The notes under the pieces: model-generated
The model's database searches: none
Told to the model about the DNA's origin: nothing
What the model saw: only the letters and a program-made list of their open reading frames with translations
Program-made: the position numbers and the translations under genes
Source of the DNA: an uncultured Desulfomonile sp.
GTDB taxonomy: Bacteria > Desulfobacterota > Desulfomonilia > Desulfomonilales > Desulfomonilaceae
Direction: 5' to 3'
DNA length: 64,000 nucleotides
NCBI GenBank assembly: GCA_903896745.1
Contig: CAITZA010000363.1
Coordinates: forward strand, 1-64,000
Shown: positions 22,581 to 33,402 of the stretch, piece after piece
How positions within the stretch are numbered: the first letter of the stretch is position 1
Layout of the letters: each line of letters starts with the position of its first letter

Positions 22581-23867
22581 CTAGTTCTTCCTGGCGCTTC
22601 CCTGCTTATTCACCTCAATCTCCTCCAATGCCGCCTTTATTAGTCTTTTTGCAGGATCATAACTCTCCTGATTCAAGGCGTCACTGAGAATCGGAATAAC
22701 CTTATCAGGGACTTCACCGCCTAACCTTTTCAGAGACCCAATTGAAGCCATGCGGACCCGGTGATCCTTGTCCGTGACTGTCTTGGTCAAGGCCGTCAAC
22801 ACCTCGCCTGATGGGGTCTTGATCTGACTCAGACCGCTTATGGCCGAATTCCTGACACGGATATCCGGGTCATCGGTCATGGTCACCAAGGCCGACGCAG
22901 CCTTGTCAGAATCGTTGGCAACTCCTTTGAGTATTCCAATGACAACCATACGATTTTCAACCTCAGGATCGTTGATAGTCTTTAATAAGGGCCCCATGAA
23001 TTCCTGCCAACCAGACTTAAACTTTAGCAGACCCAGCAAGGCTTCCTTTCTGTCTATCGGATCGTCTGATTCCAAAGATTTTACGAATATTGGAAGAGAG
23101 TAGTCTCCCTTTTCATCAAGGGCCGCGACTGTATCCAGTATTTCCGAGCGGGTAGACGCGTCAGCGTCTGCGAACATGGCCGCTACTTTCGGCAGGGCCG
23201 CCGAAGCGTCCTTTTTCATTTTCCTCAATGCTGGGAGGGCGTGTTTGGCGGCCTTCGAGTTCTTGTCATCAAGGGCCTTGATAAGTAACGGCGCTACCTT
23301 ATCCGGTTTCTCGGGACCGATGGCGCCGAGCGCTCGAGCAGCCGCCTTGGATGTAGATTCATTAGGGCTGGCGAGCGAGTCAGCCAGGACAGGGAGGGTC
23401 GCGTCATCATATTTCCCCATTAAGGCTAGCGCAATAATAGCGTTTGAATGCAACAGTTTATCCGGGTCATCCAGCTTTCGGCGAACCAGTTCCTCCACCG
23501 CGGCGTCTCCGGAACCAAGCCGCCCCAAAGACAGGATGGATGATCGCCTGACTTCCGGATCTGGGTCGGAGGCGGCCTCTATTAAAGCTGATAGAGCTTT
23601 GTCATCCTTGGGAAAATGACCTAGCGCATCTGCCGCTGCGCTGCGAACCTTGGAGCTTTCATCCTTTAACGCTTCTGTCAAAGGCGGCACGGCCTTTGTA
23701 GGTTTGTTTCAGGAACATCCCAGTTCAAATGCCGCCTTGGCGCGAACATCCGGATCAGCGTTCTTCAAATCCTTGATGTAATCGTCAACGGAGCCGGCCA
23801 GGGTGTTGGCCACAAACACAAGAAATAGAAGGAAAGTTATTGCCGGTAACCCAATCAGACGTTTCAT
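22581..23867 (-). CDS. exported HEAT-repeat protein interrupted by one in-frame UGA (candidate selenoprotein or nonsense mutation)
   Basis: The track calls only 22581-23690 from a GTG inside a repeat, but the frame continues upstream to ATG 23867, broken by a single TGA at 23709-23711 (codon 53). The upstream part encodes a signal peptide (MKRLIGLPAITFLLFLVFVA, cleavage near TLA-GS) and half of the first HEAT repeat (VRAKAAFELGCS), and the downstream part resumes it (NKPTKAVPPL). ATG 23867 overlaps the upstream gene's TGA as ATGA, so translation is coupled. Across the stop the protein has 428 codons and roughly ten HEAT repeats, a periplasmic scaffold in appearance. A hairpin follows the UGA (see next entry). 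Alternatives are a Gly or Arg to stop mutation, or a sequencing error. Function is unknown. Confidence 0.8.
23679..23698 (-). promoter_or_regulatory. SECIS-like hairpin just after the in-frame UGA
   Basis: On the minus strand CAAAGGC and GCCTTTG form a perfect 7-bp stem around the six-base loop CGTGCC. The loop begins 17 bases after the UGA and its second base is G. As I recall the bacterial SECIS model (an upper stem, a short apical loop with G in the first two positions, and about 16-37 bases from UGA to loop), all three conditions hold. The stem also encodes conserved repeat residues (KAVPPL), so chance pairing cannot be excluded. Confidence 0.4.
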
Positions 23868-24661
23868 TCAAGAGCTTCCTTCCTGCTCAATACTTCCTTT
23901 TTCTTTTGATTCAGGAAATCCTTGTCAATTTTAAGAAATCCCTTTTGTCCAAAAAGCGCAAATCTCAGCCACTGGGAAGCAAAATAAAGCATCGCCACAT
24001 CATCATTTTTGATTTTTTCAATGATGTCGTCATCAACCTTGAACTTCTGTAAAAAAGTAGACTCAAAAACGAATTCCCTGAAACGATCAACATCATAAAT
24101 CGCCATCAAAAACATGTCCTGCATTCGCTGATCGACAATCTTCTCTTCCCATAGCCTGTCAGCGTGCATCACATCCTTCAGGTTATGGTCAATGTCATCA
24201 TAGTCGTAAAGCCCTTGTTCGTTCCTCCAGCGTTCAACAGTCCACTCTTCCGATTCACCCAAGCCGTGGCATTTTGCCTGGTCTACAATTAGTGTGTATT
24301 CCACACCCTGTTCGGTGTCCAGAGGATACAATCTGCATGAATAAGGTCTGCTGTCATATACTGTGCATCCGGATTCAGATACGAACTGGCACTGTTTCTT
24401 TTCATCTTGGGACATCTTTAGCGCCAACGCAGGCAATCCGCTTTCCCTGGAAACCAGCAAGTGAGTGTAGTTCTCTATGAAATCGGTTGATGATATCCCT
24501 AGTTTCTTGCGAAGATGAACCACATCCAGCGGATTGAGTAAAATTGTTACGTCCCTGCAACAAGAATTAAAGCAGTCTATTTTTTGATGACACCTGAATT
24601 TGAATGTATCGTCCCACGTCATCAGTTTTGATTCTTTGGATGCAGCGTCCTGCAGTTTCAT
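23864..24661 (-). CDS. YkgJ family cysteine cluster protein
   Basis: 265-residue protein with the CxxCxxCC-type cluster of the YkgJ/Fe-S or zinc-chelating family. CHQKIDCFNSCCRD lies near residue 24, followed by CQFVSESGCTVYDSRPYSCRLYPL near 91-115 and a further Cys at about 131. The C-terminal half is acidic and helical without recognised motifs. An AAGGA ribosome site precedes ATG 24661. It overlaps the downstream HEAT gene by four bases (ATGA) and follows the SEC-C/TPR gene by 26, so the three form one operon. Family members may bind metal or modify proteins; the role here is unknown. Confidence 0.85.
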   Translation of the reverse strand: MKLQDAASKESKLMTWDDTFKFRCHQKIDCFNSCCRDVTILLNPLDVVHLRKKLGISSTDFIENYTHLLVSRESGLPALALKMSQDEKKQCQFVSESGCTVYDSRPYSCRLYPLDTEQGVEYTLIVDQAKCHGLGESEEWTVERWRNEQGLYDYDDIDHNLKDVMHADRLWEEKIVDQRMQDMFLMAIYDVDRFREFVFESTFLQKFKVDDDIIEKIKNDDVAMLYFASQWLRFALFGQKGFLKIDKDFLNQKKKEVLSRKEALE

Positions 24662-24687: not shown

Positions 24688-25653
24688 TTAGTTTTGTTTC
24701 TGGAGGGATGCGCTTATTCGAGCAAGATTTTCCTCAGCCTGTTTGGTTCCCGGCGAAAGCTCTAACGTCTTTCTGTAGCATTCCGCCGCCTTCTCGAGAT
24801 CACCCATCAGTTCATACGCAACCCCTCTCTGGTGATGAGCCCCTACATAATCCGGTCTGTGGAATACTGCGTTGTTAAAGCAGTGAAGAGCCTTCGAAAA
24901 ATCCCGCTTGCTGATCAGCCATATCTGCCCCATGTTGTAGTGGGCCGCCACAACAGAAGGATTTATCTCAACAACCTTTTCAAATACCGCAATAGCTTCA
25001 TCGTCCCTCTTGAGGTAAGAATACGCGACTCCCAGATTGTATAGAATAGCAGGGTTGTCCGGCGCTATTCTGATAAGGTTTTCCAGCCTGAGACAAGCCG
25101 AGTTGTAATCCTCAGCTTCCATTTCCGAAAAGGCCCTCTGAATCTGAACTTGGAAAAGGAAGAAATTGGATTCCGGACGGTTCTCTTCAGACTGGAGTTG
25201 CCGAATAATCTCCGATAAATGACGTTTCTGGCTTTCATCCGTGGTCAGCGAAAGGCATTCCTGAAATGCGACGCCAGCCTTCTCGAATCTGCCTGCGCAC
25301 CCTCTGGAGACGCCTAGCCGGTATAAATTCTCAGCACGACTTTGAGGCGGACATGCCGCAAGAGCTTTCTCAAAAAATTCTGCGGCCATGAGGTAGTCTT
25401 CTTCACCATCATAACATGCGGCTATTGCCTCAAAGATAAGATAGGGCTGTCCTGTCCTGTCCTGAATTGTTTTGAAATCCTCAATGGCCTCTCTCCACAA
25501 CCTGTCGGACATCTTCTTGAAAGCGGTCGCCTTGACGTTGGAAACCTCGTCTGCATCAACATGTGAGGCTGAGTCCTTCTCCAAGCAACAGTTTTTGTAC
25601 TTTGAACCGCTGCCACAAGGACACGGATCGTTTCTACCGACTAGATTGATCAT
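24688..25653 (-). CDS. SEC-C motif and TPR-repeat protein
   Basis: 321 residues from ATG 25653, which has AAGGAG five bases upstream; the track start adds 42 residues of hydrophobic junk. The zinc-binding SEC-C motif GRNDPCPCGSGSKYKNCC is at the extreme N terminus, an uncommon position compared with SecA. At least six TPR units follow from about 35 to the end (for example PAILYNLGVAYSYLKRDDEAIAVFEKV and YVGAHHQRGVAYELMGDLEKA). The SEC-C motif suggests contact with SecB or ribosomes, the TPRs a scaffold. First gene of the operon with the YkgJ and HEAT genes. Confidence 0.85.
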   Translation of the reverse strand: MINLVGRNDPCPCGSGSKYKNCCLEKDSASHVDADEVSNVKATAFKKMSDRLWREAIEDFKTIQDRTGQPYLIFEAIAACYDGEEDYLMAAEFFEKALAACPPQSRAENLYRLGVSRGCAGRFEKAGVAFQECLSLTTDESQKRHLSEIIRQLQSEENRPESNFFLFQVQIQRAFSEMEAEDYNSACLRLENLIRIAPDNPAILYNLGVAYSYLKRDDEAIAVFEKVVEINPSVVAAHYNMGQIWLISKRDFSKALHCFNNAVFHRPDYVGAHHQRGVAYELMGDLEKAAECYRKTLELSPGTKQAEENLARISASLQKQN

Positions 25654-26166
25654 GGAGGCTCCTTGAAAGAGATGTAACTGAATCCTACATTTTAATATAA
25701 TCTCGCTGATCCGCAAAGAAAATATCGCAGTAATTTTTAACAAATATAAGATAATAGACAAATAAAAATATCTTGACAATTAACGATGGATTTGATTGAA
25801 TCCGGTACTCATTATTGCTTAGGCTATTCTTTAGGCCTAATCGGTACTCAATTTTTAAATTACAGCGCAAACTCAGCTTTCGTAAGAGATCAAATGGTCG
25901 AAGTTTTCCTCGGAAGGTCCTGACTCACGCGACTTTCTGTGAGATGACTGCAGGAGCTTTAAAGGCTGGCTGGTCTCAGCAAGGTTAGCTAAAAAATCCG
26001 GGTGGTGATCTCGTATAATGTTTCCTGACTTTTCTGCTCCTTTCGAGTTGCGAAGACCATTGTAAGAGAAAGGAGGAGCCTGTAAAAGATCGAAACCCTT
26101 AAGGCGAAACATGTCAAGAGAGTCAAAGGACTCTAACAAAGCTCAAACAAACTAGGAGGTTAGTTC
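25654..26166. other. intergenic region and aprBA leader
   Basis: 513 bases between the divergent SEC-C/TPR gene and aprB. A -10-like TATAAT at 26014-26019 without a clear -35 box could start the aprBA transcript, giving a leader of about 140 bases. In that leader CTCCTTTC (26037-26044) pairs with GAAAGGAG (26068-26075), an 8-bp stem with a 23-base loop. The ribosome site AGGAGGT precedes aprB. The minus frame 25873-26139 has no protein features and is not called. The A/T-rich 25700-25860 stretch also holds TTGACA (25773) with a poor -10. Confidence 0.4.
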
Positions 26167-26610
26167 ATGCCGAGTTATGTTATTTTGGAAAAATGCGATG
26201 GTTGCAAGGGCCAGGACAAGACCGCTTGCATGTACATCTGCCCCAACGACTTGATGGTTTTGGACAAGGAGAAGATGAAAGCCTGGAACAGGGCTCCCGA
26301 AATGTGCTGGGAATGCTACAATTGCGTCAAGATTTGCCCTCAGCAGGCTATTGACGTGAGAGGCTACGCTGACTTCGTTCCTATGGGCGCCTCATGTGTT
26401 CCTCTAAGAGGTTCCGAAGACATTATGTGGACGGTAAAGTTCCGCAGCGGTCAGGTAAAAAGGTTCAAATTCCCCATCCGTACAACAGCTGAAGGATCAG
26501 CGGTACCTGATGGTGGATTTGGTGAAGTTTGCACCGATTTGGCTTCACAGTGCCTTTATAATGAGCCGGACGCTCTCAAGCTAAAAGACCTGCCCACAGT
26601 CAAGAAGTAA
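26167..26610 (+). CDS. aprB: adenylylsulfate (APS) reductase beta subunit
   Basis: 147-residue iron-sulfur subunit that carries electrons to AprA for reduction of APS to sulfite and AMP in the cytoplasm. Two [4Fe-4S] clusters are coordinated by CDGCKGQDKTACMYICP and CWECYNCVKICP, the first with the family's inserted loop. The C-terminal tail wraps AprA in known structures; here it ends KDLPTVKK, a normal length. A strong AGGAGGT ribosome site precedes it. It is followed after 18 bases by aprA. Electrons probably come from QmoABC encoded downstream. Confidence 0.97.
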   Translation: MPSYVILEKCDGCKGQDKTACMYICPNDLMVLDKEKMKAWNRAPEMCWECYNCVKICPQQAIDVRGYADFVPMGASCVPLRGSEDIMWTVKFRSGQVKRFKFPIRTTAEGSAVPDGGFGEVCTDLASQCLYNEPDALKLKDLPTVKK

Positions 26611-26628
26611 TTTGAGGAGGAACTAAAT

Positions 26629-28506
26629 ATGGCGAATTTTGAAACCGTAGAAGTAACCACTGACATTCTGCTTTGCGGCGGCGGTATGGCCTGCTGCGGC
26701 GCGGCAGTTGAAGCAGCTTATTGGGCCGCCAAGAACGGCCTTAAGGTAACACTTGTTGACAAAGCGGCCATGGACCGTTCCGGCGCTGTCGCCATGGGTC
26801 TATCGGCTATCAACCAGTATGTTGACATTAACAGCGGCGCTAACACCTGCGAAGACTATGTGCGTTACGTCCGTAACGACCTTATGGGTATTACGCGTGA
26901 AGACCTCGTTTATGATATAGCGCGTCACGTCGATTCCTCGGTTCACCTGTTCGAAAAATGGGGACTCCCGATTTGGCTGGATGCAGACGGCAAGTATGTT
27001 CATGAAGGCCGCTGGCAGCTCATGATCAACGGTGAATCCTACAAAGTCATCGTCGCGGAAGCCGCCAAGAACGCTCTGACCAAGTATGGCCATGAGTATT
27101 TTGAGAGAGTATTTATCACCACACCTGTGCTGGACGGTGACCGCATTGCTGGCGCGTGTGGATTCAGCACACGTGAAGACAAGTTCTATGTATTCAAGGC
27201 CAAGGCAGTTTTGGCGGCCATGGGTGGAGCGGTTCACGTATTCAAGCCGAGAAGCTCTGGTGAAGGTCTTGGACGCGCATGGTACCCACCATGGAACTCC
27301 GGCTCAAGCCTTTATTTCACATTGATCGCTGGCGCAGAGCAGACCTGCCAGGAAGTACGCTTCATTCCAGTGCGTTTTAAGGATGCTTACGGCCCAGTCG
27401 GCGCATGGTTCCTACTGTTCAAGTCCCGTGCCACCAACGCCCTCGGTGGTGAGTACATGGTTGATCGCAAAGACGAGCTCGCGAACTGGGGCTCATACGG
27501 CGCAGTAAAACCCATCCCAGCGAACCTGCGTAACTATCTCGGTATGTTAGACGAATTCGAAGGCAAGGGTCCCATCTATATGAGGACTGAAGAAGCCATT
27601 CAGAAGATCGCCAACCAGTATGCCGACGATCCTAAGGCCTTCAAGAAGAAAATGAAGGAACTCGAAGCCGAAGCTTGGGAAGACTTCCTCGATATGACAA
27701 TTTCCCAGGCCATTCTCTGGGCGGGCACCGATGTTCAGCCCGAAGAGAAGAAATCAGAAATCGCGGCCGCCGAGCCTTACTTCATTGGTTCCCACTCAGG
27801 CGCGTCCGGAGCATGGGTAAGCGGTCCTAAAGACCTTGCGCCACCCGAGTATTTCTGGGGCTATGAGTACATGTCAACAGTTAAGGGCATGTTCTGCGCG
27901 GGCGACGCTTCCGGCGCTTCCAGCCACAAGTTCTCCTCAGGTTCACACGCCGAAGGTAGAGCCGCTGGTAAGTCCATGGTGCGTTTCGTCCTCGACAACA
28001 ACAGCCAGCCAGCCGTTGACGCTGCCAAAGTTGAAGAGATCAAGAAAAGCGTTCTCAAGCCTCTTGACATCTTCGCCGAATTTGGCGGGAAGTCCAGCGA
28101 TCCTGACATTAACCCCGAGTTCATGAAACCCAAAATGTTCATGTTCCGCCTGCAGAAAATCATGGATGAGTATGCGGCCGGTGTTACCGCGGGATTCAAG
28201 ACCAATCAGTGGAAACTGGAAAGAGCCCTCGAACTTCTCAACTGGCTCAAGGAAGACTCCGAGAAGCTGGCGGCTCAGGATCTGCACGAACTTATGAGAT
28301 GCCATGAAAACATTCAGAGAATGTGGCAGGCAGAAGTCCACGTAAGGACCATTCTGTTCCGTGAAGAGACCCGTTGGCCGGGCTACTATTTCCGCAACGA
28401 TTTCCCCAAACTGGATGAAGCCAATTGGAAGTGTTTCGTCAACGCCACTTACAAGAATGGTCAGTGGGAAATGAAGAAAGTGCCCGTACTCTCCATCGTT
28501 GACTAA
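26629..28506 (+). CDS. aprA: adenylylsulfate (APS) reductase alpha subunit
   Basis: 625-residue flavoprotein catalytic subunit that reduces APS to sulfite and AMP in dissimilatory sulfate reduction. The N-terminal FAD-binding motif is LLCGGGMACCGAAVEAAYWA; the fumarate-reductase-like fold continues through DRSGAVAMGLSAINQY and the C-terminal GSHAEGRAAGKS flavin segment. Length and organisation match AprA of sulfate reducers. Codon use is noticeably richer in C-ending codons (GGC, AAC, ATC) than in neighbours, as expected for a highly expressed gene. A terminator follows before qmoA. Confidence 0.97.
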   Translation: MANFETVEVTTDILLCGGGMACCGAAVEAAYWAAKNGLKVTLVDKAAMDRSGAVAMGLSAINQYVDINSGANTCEDYVRYVRNDLMGITREDLVYDIARHVDSSVHLFEKWGLPIWLDADGKYVHEGRWQLMINGESYKVIVAEAAKNALTKYGHEYFERVFITTPVLDGDRIAGACGFSTREDKFYVFKAKAVLAAMGGAVHVFKPRSSGEGLGRAWYPPWNSGSSLYFTLIAGAEQTCQEVRFIPVRFKDAYGPVGAWFLLFKSRATNALGGEYMVDRKDELANWGSYGAVKPIPANLRNYLGMLDEFEGKGPIYMRTEEAIQKIANQYADDPKAFKKKMKELEAEAWEDFLDMTISQAILWAGTDVQPEEKKSEIAAAEPYFIGSHSGASGAWVSGPKDLAPPEYFWGYEYMSTVKGMFCAGDASGASSHKFSSGSHAEGRAAGKSMVRFVLDNNSQPAVDAAKVEEIKKSVLKPLDIFAEFGGKSSDPDINPEFMKPKMFMFRLQKIMDEYAAGVTAGFKTNQWKLERALELLNWLKEDSEKLAAQDLHELMRCHENIQRMWQAEVHVRTILFREETRWPGYYFRNDFPKLDEANWKCFVNATYKNGQWEMKKVPVLSIVD

Positions 28507-28526
28507 CCTCTAAACTCATGTTCATG

Positions 28527-28557
28527 CTCTGAGCGTCTACCCAAAGGGCGCTCAGAG
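28527..28557 (+). repeat. intercistronic hairpin after aprA
   Basis: Perfect 9-bp inverted repeat CTCTGAGCG / CGCTCAGAG (28527-28535 with 28549-28557, 13-base loop) with no T tract. It may stabilise the 3' end of the aprBA message. A small ATCGAT repeat follows at about 28564-28582. Confidence 0.6.
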
Positions 28558-28580
28558 AAACAATCGATACTGAGTAATCG

Positions 28581-28617
28581 ATGAGGGGGCGTTTGTGCTC
28601 CCTCATAACCTTTTTTT
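28581..28617 (+). terminator. intrinsic terminator between aprBA and qmoABC
   Basis: ATGAGGGGGC / GCTCCCTCAT form a 10-bp stem (one G-T pair) with a 6-base loop, 28581-28606, followed four bases later by seven T. The qmoA ribosome site begins immediately after, so qmo expression depends on readthrough or on a promoter inside the hairpin region. The track's qmoA start at 28581 falls inside this stem. Confidence 0.72.
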
Positions 28618-28628
28618 GGGGAGGAAGC

Positions 28629-29891
28629 ATGGCTGGAGAAAAGACCGTACTGGTCGTTGGGGGCGGTATTAGTGGAATTACGGCTGCTGTCGAAGCTGCT
28701 GAAGCTGGTTGCAAGGTGATTCTGGTCGAAAAGCAACCCTATTTAGGAGGGCGGGTCGCCCGGATGAACAAGTATTTTCCGAAGCTTTGTCCTCCCACTT
28801 GCGGCCTGGAAATCAATTTCAAGAGAATCAGAAAAAACCCGGATATTACCGTCTATACCCTTGCAAACGTCGAATCGGTGTCGGGATCTTCCGGCGCTTA
28901 TACCGCTACAATCAAGATTAACCCAAGATATGTGGAAGATCACGCCGCCACCTCGAAGTGTGTGGATGACTGTCCCGCCGACATATCTAACGAATTCAAC
29001 TATGGCATGGATAAATGCAAGGCAGTCCGACTCCCTTACGAAATGGCCTTCCCAATGAGTCTTGTTGCAGACGCGGAGGCTTTACGGGCTGTTAACGGGT
29101 CAGAATTGGGCGCCTTCATGGATTCGTGCGAATCCAGGGGAATCAGAATCGATCTACATGCGCAGCCAGAGACCTTCAAGGTCGATGTAAGTTCTGTTAT
29201 ATGGGCTACAGGATGGGTTCCTTATGACGCAACCAAGCTTGATAAACTTGGCTTTGGCAAGTTCGCCAATGTAATTACCAACGTGATGATGGAAAGGTTG
29301 GCCAATGTTGGTGGTCCAACCGCTGGCCATATAGTCAGACCGTCCGACGGGAAAAAGGTAAATAACCTGGCTTTTGTTCAATGCGCAGGGTCCAGGGACG
29401 AAAACCATCTGCCATATTGCTCATCGATCTGTTGCCTTGCCTCGCTAAAGCAGGCCACATATCTTCGCGACTATAACCCCGAGGCTCAGGCACATATTTT
29501 CTATATAGATTTAAGAGCTTACGGGCGTTTTGAATATTTCTTTGACAGGGTCCGTAACGATGAAAAAATTCTCCTCACCAAGGGGAAGATAGTCAATATT
29601 TTTGAGGATCCAGTAACCAAAGACGTCATAGTTGAGGGCGAGGACATCATGTCCGGCGAGAAAATCCGGCGTGCATTCGACATGGTCGTACTGGCCACTG
29701 GAATGCAACCCACCACAAGTATCGACAAGATTCCGACCGCCGGTGTGGAATATGACGAATTTGGATTCCTTGTATCTGATCAGGGAATTCACGCCGCAGG
29801 GGTGACTAAGCGACCTATGGACGTGGGCACGTGCTTGCAGGACGCCACCGGAGCTGCTCTCAAAGCCCTTCAAGACACGTTGGGGAGGTAA
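28629..29891 (+). CDS. qmoA: quinone-interacting membrane-bound oxidoreductase subunit A
   Basis: 420-residue HdrA-like flavoprotein of the Qmo complex, which links menaquinol to APS reductase. The FAD motif VLVVGGGISGITAAVEAAEAG starts the protein; HdrA-type cysteine motifs include PKLCPPTCGLEINF, and QCAGSRD with CSSICCLASLKQA lie in the C-terminal half. I set the start at ATG 28629, after GGGGAGGAAG and just before the FAD motif; the track start adds 16 residues lying in the terminator hairpin. qmoB begins 4 bases after the stop. Confidence 0.95.
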   Translation: MAGEKTVLVVGGGISGITAAVEAAEAGCKVILVEKQPYLGGRVARMNKYFPKLCPPTCGLEINFKRIRKNPDITVYTLANVESVSGSSGAYTATIKINPRYVEDHAATSKCVDDCPADISNEFNYGMDKCKAVRLPYEMAFPMSLVADAEALRAVNGSELGAFMDSCESRGIRIDLHAQPETFKVDVSSVIWATGWVPYDATKLDKLGFGKFANVITNVMMERLANVGGPTAGHIVRPSDGKKVNNLAFVQCAGSRDENHLPYCSSICCLASLKQATYLRDYNPEAQAHIFYIDLRAYGRFEYFFDRVRNDEKILLTKGKIVNIFEDPVTKDVIVEGEDIMSGEKIRRAFDMVVLATGMQPTTSIDKIPTAGVEYDEFGFLVSDQGIHAAGVTKRPMDVGTCLQDATGAALKALQDTLGR

Positions 29892-29895
29892 TTTC

Positions 29896-32178
29896 ATGAG
29901 CCAGAAAACAGGTGTGTACATTGACACGGGTTACGGTATTGGTGAGGCCCTGGACATAGACGCGCTTTCAAAAGTTGCCACCAAGGAGTTCAAGGCTGCG
30001 CTCTGCCGCGCCGATTCATACTGGACTTCTCCTGATAAGCTTGCCATCATTCGTAACGACATCGCAAACGAGGGGCTCACTGCTGTCCTTTTAGCCGGCC
30101 CGTCATCGCGCGTATTTCAGCAGGAATTGTCTTTTGAAGGTGTCATAACCGAGAGGGTCAATCTTCGGGAACATGTTGTTTGGTGTCATCCGGCCAATGA
30201 TGAAGACACCCAGATGCTTGCTGAAGATTATATGCGAATGTCTTTGACAAAAATCGGGAAATACGAGGACAGGCCTGCCTTCCTGGAACCGAAGGAAAAG
30301 GGCATTCTAGTGATCGGTGGTGGCTATACTGGACTTACTGCGGCGCTCGAAGCGGCTGACGCAGGGTATCAGGTATATCTGGTGGAAAAGGAATCCCAAC
30401 TAGGTGGATGGGCGACGAAGTTCTCTAAAGTTTTTACAGGGAAACCTCCCTACGACCAAATTGTAGATTCGCCGGTCAGCAAGAAAATTGAGGCTGTTCT
30501 CTCCCACAAGAACATCAAGGTTTTCCTGGGTAAGAGGGTATACAGCATTGGTGGCGCGCCTGGAATGTTCGATGTTGTGATCAGGCCTGATGGCGCGTGG
30601 AATGAAAACCTGGTCAAGACCCAGAATGAATGGTTAGCCGCCAAGAAGGCCAAGGAAGGTAAAGGCGAAGAACCCGAGGCCGCCAAGACATCTGAGGAAG
30701 CGGCCGTTCCTGCGGAAGTCTTCGTTGACGAGGTGGATTTCGAACACGAAGACGTTTCTGTTGGCGCAGTTGTCCTTGCAGCCGGCTGGCGACCCGAAGA
30801 ACCTTCCGGAATGGAACATTTGGGATACGGTAAGTATGCGGATGTTATCACCAGCCTCCAGCTAGAGGAGCTCGCTCTTAACGGAAAAATAAAGAGGCCC
30901 TCTGATGGCAGGGAAGTCAAGACTATCGCCTTTCTGGAATGCATTGGTGATGATGTTCAGCATCCATGGTTATACAGCTCTGCCGTAGGTTGCCTCGTGG
31001 CCCTAAAACAGGCTCACTACCTCAGAAAGTCTAACCCTGACGGACGCGCCTATATTTTCTATGATAACATGCGAGCCCCCGGGCAGTACGAGAAGTTTTA
31101 CAGGGCTATGCAGGACGATCCGGGAGTGTTCCTGTCAAAAGGTATTCCGGTTTCGGTTTCCAACGGTTCGTCTAGCCTCTCCCTTGAAGTTAAGGATACA
31201 CTGCTGGGTGAAAAGCTTAAAGTTTCCGTGGATCTGATAGTGCTCTCTACCGGCATGATTCCGGCCACGAAGGACGCCGCTATAGTCAACCTCAAGTACA
31301 GACAGGGCCCGTTCTTACCCGAAAATCCCAACGGTTTTAATGATTCTCACTTCATCTGTTTTCCGTATGAGACACAGAGGACCGGTATATATACCGCGGG
31401 ATGCGTCAGAGGCCCAATGGACTTTCTTTCCTGCGAGACCGATGCCACTGGGGCAGCGCTAAAGGCAATTCAGTGCGCAGAGCTTGTATCTCAGGGAAAG
31501 GCCGTTCATCCACGCGCCGGAGATGAATCATTTCCTCAGATATTTACTCAGAGATGCACCCAGTGCAAGCGTTGCACAGAAGAATGTCCCTTCGGCGCAT
31601 ACGATGAAAAACCGGACGGCACGCCCATGCCTAATCCCTCGCGTTGCCGACGGTGCGCTATCTGCATGGGGTCATGCCCTGAACGTATCATCTCGTTCCG
31701 GGATCACTCCGTAGATATGATTGGGTCGATGGTGAAGGCGATAGATGTGCCTGACGAGTACGCGGAGAAGCCTCGGGTAGTGTGTTTTATATGCGAAAAT
31801 GACGCTTTTCCGGCCATTGATATGGCAGGTATCAATCGACTACAATACAGTTCCTATATCAGATTCATCCCTTTACGATGTCTGGGCAACATTAATATGG
31901 TGTGGATTGCAGACTCCCTTTCAAAAGGAATTGACGGAATCATGCTTATTGGTTGCAAATACGGGGATGACTATCAATGCCACTTTGTGAAGGGTAGCGA
32001 ACTTGCCGAGTACAGAATGGGCAAGATTTCAGAAACCCTGCAGAGGTTGGTGCTTGAATCGGAACGTATTCGAGTTCACCAGCTAGCTATCGATGAATAT
32101 GATCAAATCCCCAAACTTGTTGATGATTTCATGGAGACTCTCTCCGGATTTGATCCTAACCCATACAAAGGCTTCTAA
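29896..32178 (+). CDS. qmoB: quinone-interacting membrane-bound oxidoreductase subunit B
   Basis: 760-residue Qmo subunit with three parts. An N-terminal segment of about 130 residues is followed by an HdrA-like FAD domain starting GILVIGGGYTGLTAALEAADAG (near 135), then two [4Fe-4S] motifs (CTQCKRCTEECP and CRRCAICMGSCP, about 555-600), then an MvhD-like C-terminal domain with FICENDAFP and GCKYGDDYQCHF. A charged low-complexity insert rich in K, E and A lies near 245-280. It passes electrons between the QmoC membrane subunit and AprAB; flavin-based bifurcation or confurcation has been proposed for such complexes. Confidence 0.95.
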   Translation: MSQKTGVYIDTGYGIGEALDIDALSKVATKEFKAALCRADSYWTSPDKLAIIRNDIANEGLTAVLLAGPSSRVFQQELSFEGVITERVNLREHVVWCHPANDEDTQMLAEDYMRMSLTKIGKYEDRPAFLEPKEKGILVIGGGYTGLTAALEAADAGYQVYLVEKESQLGGWATKFSKVFTGKPPYDQIVDSPVSKKIEAVLSHKNIKVFLGKRVYSIGGAPGMFDVVIRPDGAWNENLVKTQNEWLAAKKAKEGKGEEPEAAKTSEEAAVPAEVFVDEVDFEHEDVSVGAVVLAAGWRPEEPSGMEHLGYGKYADVITSLQLEELALNGKIKRPSDGREVKTIAFLECIGDDVQHPWLYSSAVGCLVALKQAHYLRKSNPDGRAYIFYDNMRAPGQYEKFYRAMQDDPGVFLSKGIPVSVSNGSSSLSLEVKDTLLGEKLKVSVDLIVLSTGMIPATKDAAIVNLKYRQGPFLPENPNGFNDSHFICFPYETQRTGIYTAGCVRGPMDFLSCETDATGAALKAIQCAELVSQGKAVHPRAGDESFPQIFTQRCTQCKRCTEECPFGAYDEKPDGTPMPNPSRCRRCAICMGSCPERIISFRDHSVDMIGSMVKAIDVPDEYAEKPRVVCFICENDAFPAIDMAGINRLQYSSYIRFIPLRCLGNINMVWIADSLSKGIDGIMLIGCKYGDDYQCHFVKGSELAEYRMGKISETLQRLVLESERIRVHQLAIDEYDQIPKLVDDFMETLSGFDPNPYKGF

Positions 32179-32190
32179 GGAGGTTCACTC

Positions 32191-33402
32191 ATGGCGAAAG
32201 AATTTGTCGCTGAACCTGATCTTCAGTTCACAAAAGATTTAATAGCCGCCGGAGGTACCGACCTTAAGAAGTGCTATCAGTGCGCTACTTGTTCGGTCGC
32301 CTGTCGAATTGCGCCAGATAACAACCCGTATCCTCGCAAGGAAATGATTTGGGCTCAATGGGGTCTAAAAAACAAGCTCATTAATGACCCCGATATATGG
32401 CTGTGTCATCAGTGCAATGACTGTTCGACTCAATGCCCACGAGGGGCAAATCCCGGCGACACTCTCAAAGCCATCCGAAAAATGGTCGTTCAGGAGAATT
32501 CTCGTCCGGCTTTCCTGGGAAAACTCGTCGGTGAGAAGTCCATGTTTGTTCTGGCTACGGGTATTCCCGTAATACTCGTGGGCCTGTTACTTTATGTTAG
32601 CGGATGGAGCTTTCCAGAAGGCCCTGTAACCTATTCCGCCCATCACCTGCCACCCAAAAAGGACGGGTTCATTTTTACCCCCGCTCTCCAGGTTCTGTTT
32701 ACAGGAGCCCTGTTATTTGCAGTGATTTCCCTGTTTCTAAGCCTCAAGGCTTACTGGCAAAATTTGAATGACAACAATCCCGTTCCGGCGGGACGTCAGC
32801 AAAAGCCTTTTGTCCCTAGCCTTGTTGAGGCTCTCAGTGAAATTCTTCCACACTCGACTTTCAAGGATTGTGAAGCCAACAATATAAGGTACAGTTCTCA
32901 CCTATTGGCCTTTTGGGGCATGATAGGCCTGGCGGTCACTACCGGTATTGTCGCCTTCAATGTGGACATCCTTGGGATATTGCCTCCATCTTTGAATGGT
33001 CCGGGAACGGTGCCAATCAAGATACTGGGAAACGTCAGCGCAGTGGCGTTCATTATAGGGCTCGGCATAATGCTCATGCGAAGGCTGACCGCCCCAGATC
33101 AGACCGGAGGAAGTTCCTATTTTGACTGGTTTTTTATCTATACCATCCTGGGTACAGGTCTAACGGGATTGCTCACTGAGCTATTCAGATGGTCCGGAAT
33201 AATCGGAGGAACCTACGTCGTTTACACAATACACCTGATCTTTGTAATGACGCTCCTGCTCTATTTGCCATTCTCAAAGTTTGCTCACATCGGGTATAGG
33301 ACCGTTGCGATTGCCTGGTCCAAGTCGGTTGGGCGGAACCTAAAAACCACGGTAAGGCCGAACTATGTTCCTTCGGCTTCCGCAGAAACCGCCGCAGAGT
33401 AA
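32191..33402 (+). CDS. qmoC: quinone-interacting membrane-bound oxidoreductase subunit C
   Basis: 403-residue membrane subunit fusing an HdrC-like iron-sulfur domain to a cytochrome b of the HdrE/NarI type. CYQCATCSVACRIAP and CHQCNDCSTQCPRGA (about 30-95) bind two [4Fe-4S] clusters. From about 110 six hydrophobic helices follow, including TGIPVILVGLLLYVSGW and the last pair with IHLIFVMTLLLYLPFSKFAH, where histidines can bind heme b and menaquinol is oxidised. AGGAGG precedes ATG 32191. Last gene of the qmo operon; a long hairpin follows. Confidence 0.95.
   Translation: MAKEFVAEPDLQFTKDLIAAGGTDLKKCYQCATCSVACRIAPDNNPYPRKEMIWAQWGLKNKLINDPDIWLCHQCNDCSTQCPRGANPGDTLKAIRKMVVQENSRPAFLGKLVGEKSMFVLATGIPVILVGLLLYVSGWSFPEGPVTYSAHHLPPKKDGFIFTPALQVLFTGALLFAVISLFLSLKAYWQNLNDNNPVPAGRQQKPFVPSLVEALSEILPHSTFKDCEANNIRYSSHLLAFWGMIGLAVTTGIVAFNVDILGILPPSLNGPGTVPIKILGNVSAVAFIIGLGIMLMRRLTAPDQTGGSSYFDWFFIYTILGTGLTGLLTELFRWSGIIGGTYVVYTIHLIFVMTLLLYLPFSKFAHIGYRTVAIAWSKSVGRNLKTTVRPNYVPSASAETAAE

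Follow-up and report, generated by a model that had tools for sequence, protein, structure and literature searches.

Introduction

A catalogue of prokaryotic selenoproteins published in 2026 comprises 119 families (Zhang et al. 2026; PMC13188914). The catalogued selenoproteins with a bacterial SECIS-type (bSECIS) hairpin and the gene described here, called HEAT-Sec, are alike in: (i) an in-frame UGA, (ii) a hairpin with an early loop G located 16-37 nt downstream, (iii) SelA, SelB, SelC and SelD genes, (iv) a Cys homologue and (v) a CxU-type motif (PMC13188914). According to a 2026 review, a thioredoxin-like fold is found in the majority of the selenoproteins characterized so far. The deep-Sep paper states that known selenoproteins all seem to have Cys homologues and that its filter may lose selenoproteins devoid of them (PMC12013277). 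By repeat sequence and fold, the relatives of HEAT-Sec are the HEAT/PBS-lyase-like repeat proteins (PF13646, PF02985, PF03130), in which no Sec is described, whereas members of the HEAT-Sec family are predicted to be exported and to carry Sec in the loop of their first repeat.

The HEAT-Sec gene and its reading frame

The window, i.e., the whole stretch of DNA that was analyzed (64,000 nt), includes a three-gene operon on its minus strand, with the following features:

24688-25779, minus strand: SEC-C motif and TPR repeat protein, first gene of the operon (Pfam PF02810 and TPR families; syntenic); SEC-C is here the name of a metal-binding motif and does not refer to selenocysteine
23864-24661, minus strand: YkgJ-type CxxCxxCC protein (putative Fe/Zn-chelating), upstream of HEAT-Sec in the operon (Pfam PF03692, E 1.5e-8; syntenic across the family)
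22581-23867, minus strand: putative HEAT-repeat selenoprotein gene, 428 codons including the Sec codon, then TAG (Pfam, TGA column of the homologues, structure model)
23796-23867, minus strand: predicted signal peptide (export), about residues 1-24
23715-23717, minus strand: codon of Cys51, candidate partner of Sec in a C-x-U motif (Cys at -2 in 15/18 Sec-type homologues)
23709-23711, minus strand: in-frame UGA, proposed Sec53, first HEAT repeat, loop between helices 39-51 and 57-66 (homologues, AlphaFold)
23679-23698, minus strand: candidate bacterial SECIS-type hairpin, 7-bp stem, 6-nt loop CGUGCC with G at position 2

The 428-codon frame contains a single internal stop, the TGA at codon 53 (23711-23709), and is otherwise intact. 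The original prediction of an exported HEAT-repeat frame split by one TGA was thus exact in its coordinates. The start codon shares an ATGA with the stop of the upstream YkgJ-type ORF, another point on which that prediction was right, and the signal peptide that it proposed was recognized by inspection in the first 24 or so residues, the hydrophobic N-terminus being kept in 19 homologues. Cys51 and Sec53 would be the only Cys/Sec residues of the predicted mature protein. In the whole window, only six pairs of ORFs in the same frame are joined by one TGA; among the five others, that around 12753 is a normal junction between two genes, and the remainder are apparently non-coding or out of frame on inspection. 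The ORF at about 12753 (248 aa) apparently encodes an ABC-transporter ATPase, whose TGA resembles a normal stop codon shortly ahead of the next start rather than a Sec codon.

The Pfam model HEAT_2 matches the protein on both sides of the UGA (160 bits over seven stretches, the best being 34-99 with E 1.8e-47) and the curated cut-off for HEAT repeats is passed. AlphaFold, run on a 19-sequence alignment with Sec entered as Cys, returned a single continuous all-helical HEAT solenoid (mean pLDDT 92) in which position 53 lies in the loop joining helices 39-51 and 57-66 of the first repeat. The claim that one HEAT repeat continues across the stop is therefore borne out by both approaches, and an exported product that folds into one HEAT alpha-solenoid and bears Sec in the inter-helix loop of the first repeat is predicted with high confidence. 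A fold search of the PDB retrieved generic HEAT/ARM solenoids only, and, by sequence, the closest PDB entries are alphaRep proteins, which are designed HEAT proteins, and the HEAT repeat domain-containing protein 6veh. The phycobilin lyases CpcE and CpcF were considered and rejected, their NCBIfam models scoring 43.7 bits against a cut-off of 330 and 46 against 220, respectively.

These data also bear on whether the UGA is a real stop, the 52 upstream codons and the downstream ORF being two genes with reinitiation at the GTG at 23690. The ORF finder does list the downstream part separately, with this GTG as start. However, the corresponding codon is GTT or GTC, which are not start codons, in most homologues; furthermore, the frame runs on without a break, the UGA falls within a single HEAT repeat, and the downstream part would be devoid of signal peptide. 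We rejected reinitiation at this GTG and consider the two-gene interpretation to have a negligible probability.

Homologues and the UGA column

In a search of 60 relatives, the downstream frames of the homologues all halt at or near one place. When the 15 best matches (one per genome) were read upstream of this place, they all showed TGA at one column, preceded by a signal peptide, with the consensus ELGC[SGAT]-UGA-[NSTE][KR]P[AT][RK]AV in most of them. Four additional paralogues, three TGA genes and one Cys gene, complete a set of 19 full-length sequences whose identity to the window protein is 26-50%. TGA occupies the identical column in all 18 Sec-type genes (that of the window included), which come from 15 genomes belonging to 10 genera of Desulfomonilaceae. 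The only homologue with a sense codon (G007; GTCCRPL) has Cys there, and none of the 19 full-length members has TAA, TAG, Trp, Gly or Arg at this position; in the protein alignment of the 19 sequences, the Sec/Cys column is invariant. Gly or Arg at this column, the outcome named beforehand as speaking against selenocysteine, is thus absent.

The original prediction had itself raised another explanation of the TGA, a recent nonsense mutation or a sequencing error, to which a pseudogene mark or an assembly error in the source genome may be added. One base change from a sense codon would suffice and the genome is a draft of 497 contigs, but neither a mutation nor a read error could have placed TGA repeatedly at the one codon in 15 genomes belonging to 10 genera, with identities as low as 26% and the frame intact on each side. 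The homologue alignment therefore refutes this explanation, whose residual probability we regard as minute.

A Cys is found at -2 to Sec, forming a CxU motif, in 15 of the 18 Sec-type homologues. The proposed CxU motif is a feature of the ortholog group and of most members, but it is not invariant: the Cys of L014 is at -3, and neither L050 nor L051 has one next to the Sec. In the phylogenetic tree, the Cys form clusters with L014, a Sec-type paralogue (support 98/97), and it retains part of the hairpin sequence. This suggests that Cys replaced Sec in this form, and not that the ancestor had Cys, without proving the direction of the change.

Matches were found in 17 of the 18 genomes of the family and in all eight high-quality ones (8/8). 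No full-length copy was found in three family genomes, all of them incomplete drafts and one with a fragment at a contig edge. When 395 genomes from across the phylum were searched, those outside Desulfomonilaceae yielded generic HEAT matches only; no relative was found in the viral collection, nor any similar DNA in plasmids.

Selenocysteine machinery

All four genes of the Sec machinery, whose presence had been proposed as a check and for which a lack of selB or selC would have counted against the prediction, are present in the source genome: SelA (497 bits) and SelB (394 bits) score over their cut-offs, tRNA-Sec (selC), likewise over its cut-off, scores 70 bits with anticodon tca (UCA), and SelD, also over its cut-off, has its own in-frame TGA in TSG-U-AAKIGPGDL, at the usual Sec position.

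L106 (G000:C97), about 221-223: TGA of selD, internal positive control

SelB was found in 18/18 genomes of the family. A second, more diverged SelB-like protein is encoded at G005:C1:3562952-3564838 and G012:C38:821-1894 (291 and 273 bits) and is possibly a second elongation factor of the SelB type.

SECIS-type hairpin

The bSECIS model applied here is that quoted in PMC13188914, with a loop of 3-9 nt, a stem of 4-16 bp, a G in the first two loop positions, a distance of 16-37 nt from the UGA and an energy <= -7.5 kcal/mol. The hairpin of the window, CAAAGGC-CGTGCC-GCCTTTG (23698-23679), fits the model in every respect: it starts 10 nt past the UGA, its loop begins 17 nt past the UGA and its energy is about -8.4 to -9.5 kcal/mol. 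The original prediction of a 7-bp hairpin with a G in its loop at a SECIS-like place holds as far as geometry is concerned, but taken alone this hairpin is unremarkable, 14% of the other codon positions in the same gene scoring equally well in a control. Its weight as evidence therefore comes from comparison across the family.

Most relatives share the form GAGGGCG-GUUC-CGCC-U-CUC, with the loop 18 nt from the UGA. Divergent homologues form hairpins with other bases (GAGGGC-AGUUG-GCCCUC in L014, GAGAUC-GGGCA-GAUCUC in L051 and a fourth form in L050), and the hairpins of L015 and L016 are poor. RNAalifold and pair counts at fixed columns picked up no more than weak covariation, since the register of the stem differs from one homologue to the next; each sequence was instead scored separately against the bSECIS model, with synonymous recoding as the null. 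In the SECIS-type scan, which had been suggested as a check, 12 of the 18 hairpins pass on all points and six miss the energy limit, whereas 500 synonymously recoded sets of the same sequences, which are related and hence not independent samples, gave 1.3 passing hairpins on average and six at most; mean hairpin energy is -8.4 observed against -1.8 (sd 0.8) after recoding. Codon usage, compared among these same non-independent homologues, points to the same region: the same-codon rate among identical residues is 0.70 at columns 58-64, whereas the gene averages 0.36 (sd 0.076). The 12 most codon-constrained of the 418 windows compared along the gene all overlap the region of the UGA and hairpin. 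No SECIS match was found with Rfam.

Programmed readthrough likewise shows a conserved UGA with a downstream hairpin, and both features would also fit readthrough of the UGA by a near-cognate tRNA (e.g., Trp) or a regulated leaky stop. Against this stand the complete Sec machinery, with SelB in 18/18 genomes, the sole sense substitution, which is Cys and never Trp, the bSECIS-fitting geometry of the hairpin and the neighbouring Cys that makes up the CxU motif; we regard such readthrough as very improbable. Sec at position 53, as claimed initially, is supported by the TGA/Cys column, the Sec machinery and the family-wide evidence on the hairpin. UGA codon 53 would be decoded as selenocysteine by SelB and tRNA-Sec under the direction of the downstream hairpin, and, whatever the function of its product, HEAT-Sec is almost certainly a true selenoprotein gene as judged from these sequence comparisons.

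Operon and paralogue neighbourhoods

The gene order SEC-C/TPR, ykgJ, HEAT-Sec is preserved across the orthologues. Beside the operon, the window carries divergent aprB, aprA and Qmo-like genes of sulfate respiration (26167-33402; named by eye). At most loci long enough to show the neighbours, aprB is divergent from the operon and gyrB faces it; where seen, aprB is 90-94% identical between loci. In the rest of the phylum, none of the 28 examined loci of YkgJ relatives outside the family has an adjacent HEAT gene.

The neighbourhoods of the paralogues are of another kind. Three Sec-type paralogues (L101, L103 and L104) adjoin a gene encoding a membrane-anchored rhodanese, which in L101 is immediately upstream. 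The other neighbours are two Thioredoxin_3 proteins, XdhC, MauE, DGC and TauE in L103, and ArsP_1, DnaJ, MauE and DGC in L104; two of the three rhodanese-adjacent paralogues thus have MauE/DoxX, DGC and thioredoxin or ArsP-permease genes nearby. The Cys paralogue is close to Thioredoxin_3 and ArsP_1 genes. The rhodaneses of these loci have a CYGPEC loop, with Cys instead of Sec. Among their best NCBIfam matches, all far below cut-off, are NF041203, rhodanese-related (seleno)protein, and NF045694, Tso operon; these are like the paralogue loci in their thiol/sulfur context but are unrelated in sequence to the HEAT-Sec protein.

Overall, the clusters of L101, L102, L103 and L104 include membrane rhodanese, DnaJ, MauE/DoxX, DGC, Thioredoxin_3, ArsP_1 permease and TauE genes, and may represent an uncharacterised thiol/sulfur module. 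It should be emphasized that the rhodanese/MauE/DGC clusters belong to the paralogues and not to the window's own operon.

Putative function

The clue to function is provided by the three paralogues located by rhodanese genes and by the Cys paralogue, which has thioredoxin and ArsP genes close by. The loop of the first HEAT repeat would carry a CxU centre made of Sec53 and Cys51; there, at the solenoid tip, Sec/Cys could alternate between selenol/thiol and selenenylsulfide, or hold sulfane sulfur, while the HEAT surface would serve as a dock for a partner protein. HEAT-Sec proteins could thus act as periplasmic thiol/sulfur redox or transfer adaptors in the sulfate reducers of Desulfomonilaceae. 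Of the roles considered, that of a periplasmic thiol/selenol redox or sulfur-transfer adaptor is the likeliest, with about even chances of being correct, the lack of Cys at -2 in L014, L050 and L051 and the restriction of the rhodanese/MauE/DGC clusters to paralogues counting against it.

The protein could also be a selenoprotein in which Sec, instead of working in redox or sulfur transfer, is a ligand of soft metals or metalloids, for scavenging or sensing. A putative metal chelator of the YkgJ type (CxxCxxCC) is encoded upstream in the operon, ArsP_1 permeases are encoded at two paralogue loci, and L050 and L051 lack a neighbouring Cys with which to form a selenenylsulfide. However, most members have the CxU pair, and the genes adjoining the paralogues (rhodanese, MauE, thioredoxin) encode thiol/sulfur enzymes; we find a metal-ligand role somewhat unlikely, and roles related neither to thiol/sulfur nor to metal/metalloid more unlikely still. 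The best explanation as a whole, that of a Sec53 decoded by SelB in an exported HEAT solenoid acting as a thiol/sulfur adaptor, is in our judgement highly probable.

Novelty and significance

The original prediction presented a HEAT-repeat selenoprotein as an unfamiliar family, and our searches agree. The 119-family catalogue includes no HEAT-repeat or other alpha-solenoid family (PMC13188914), and the NCBIfam scan gave no specific model for HEAT-Sec but only generic HEAT proteins far below cut-off. Searches in the text of openly accessible journal papers on HEAT repeat with selenoprotein, and on Desulfomonile with selenocysteine, returned nothing relevant. Unlike the catalogued families, HEAT-Sec is limited to one bacterial family, as far as searched, and has a single Cys form; detection methods based on Cys/Sec pairs therefore likely miss it, and the deep-Sep filter may explain why it was missed earlier.

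It is also conceivable, though less likely than not, that HEAT-Sec is a lineage-specific family, the first of alpha-solenoid selenoproteins, in which Sec would have arisen in a HEAT loop with practically no ancestral Cys family, and whose members would relay sulfur or thiols in the periplasm in connection with sulfate respiration. HEAT-Sec has a repeat scaffold and almost no Cys homologues, so that it and similar proteins would probably be overlooked by methods relying on Sec/Cys pairs. This work adds a probable selenoprotein family found in every well-assembled genome of Desulfomonilaceae (8/8), beside core genes of sulfate respiration, and, since the lineage includes the cultured Desulfomonile tiedjei, HEAT-Sec is amenable to experimental testing.
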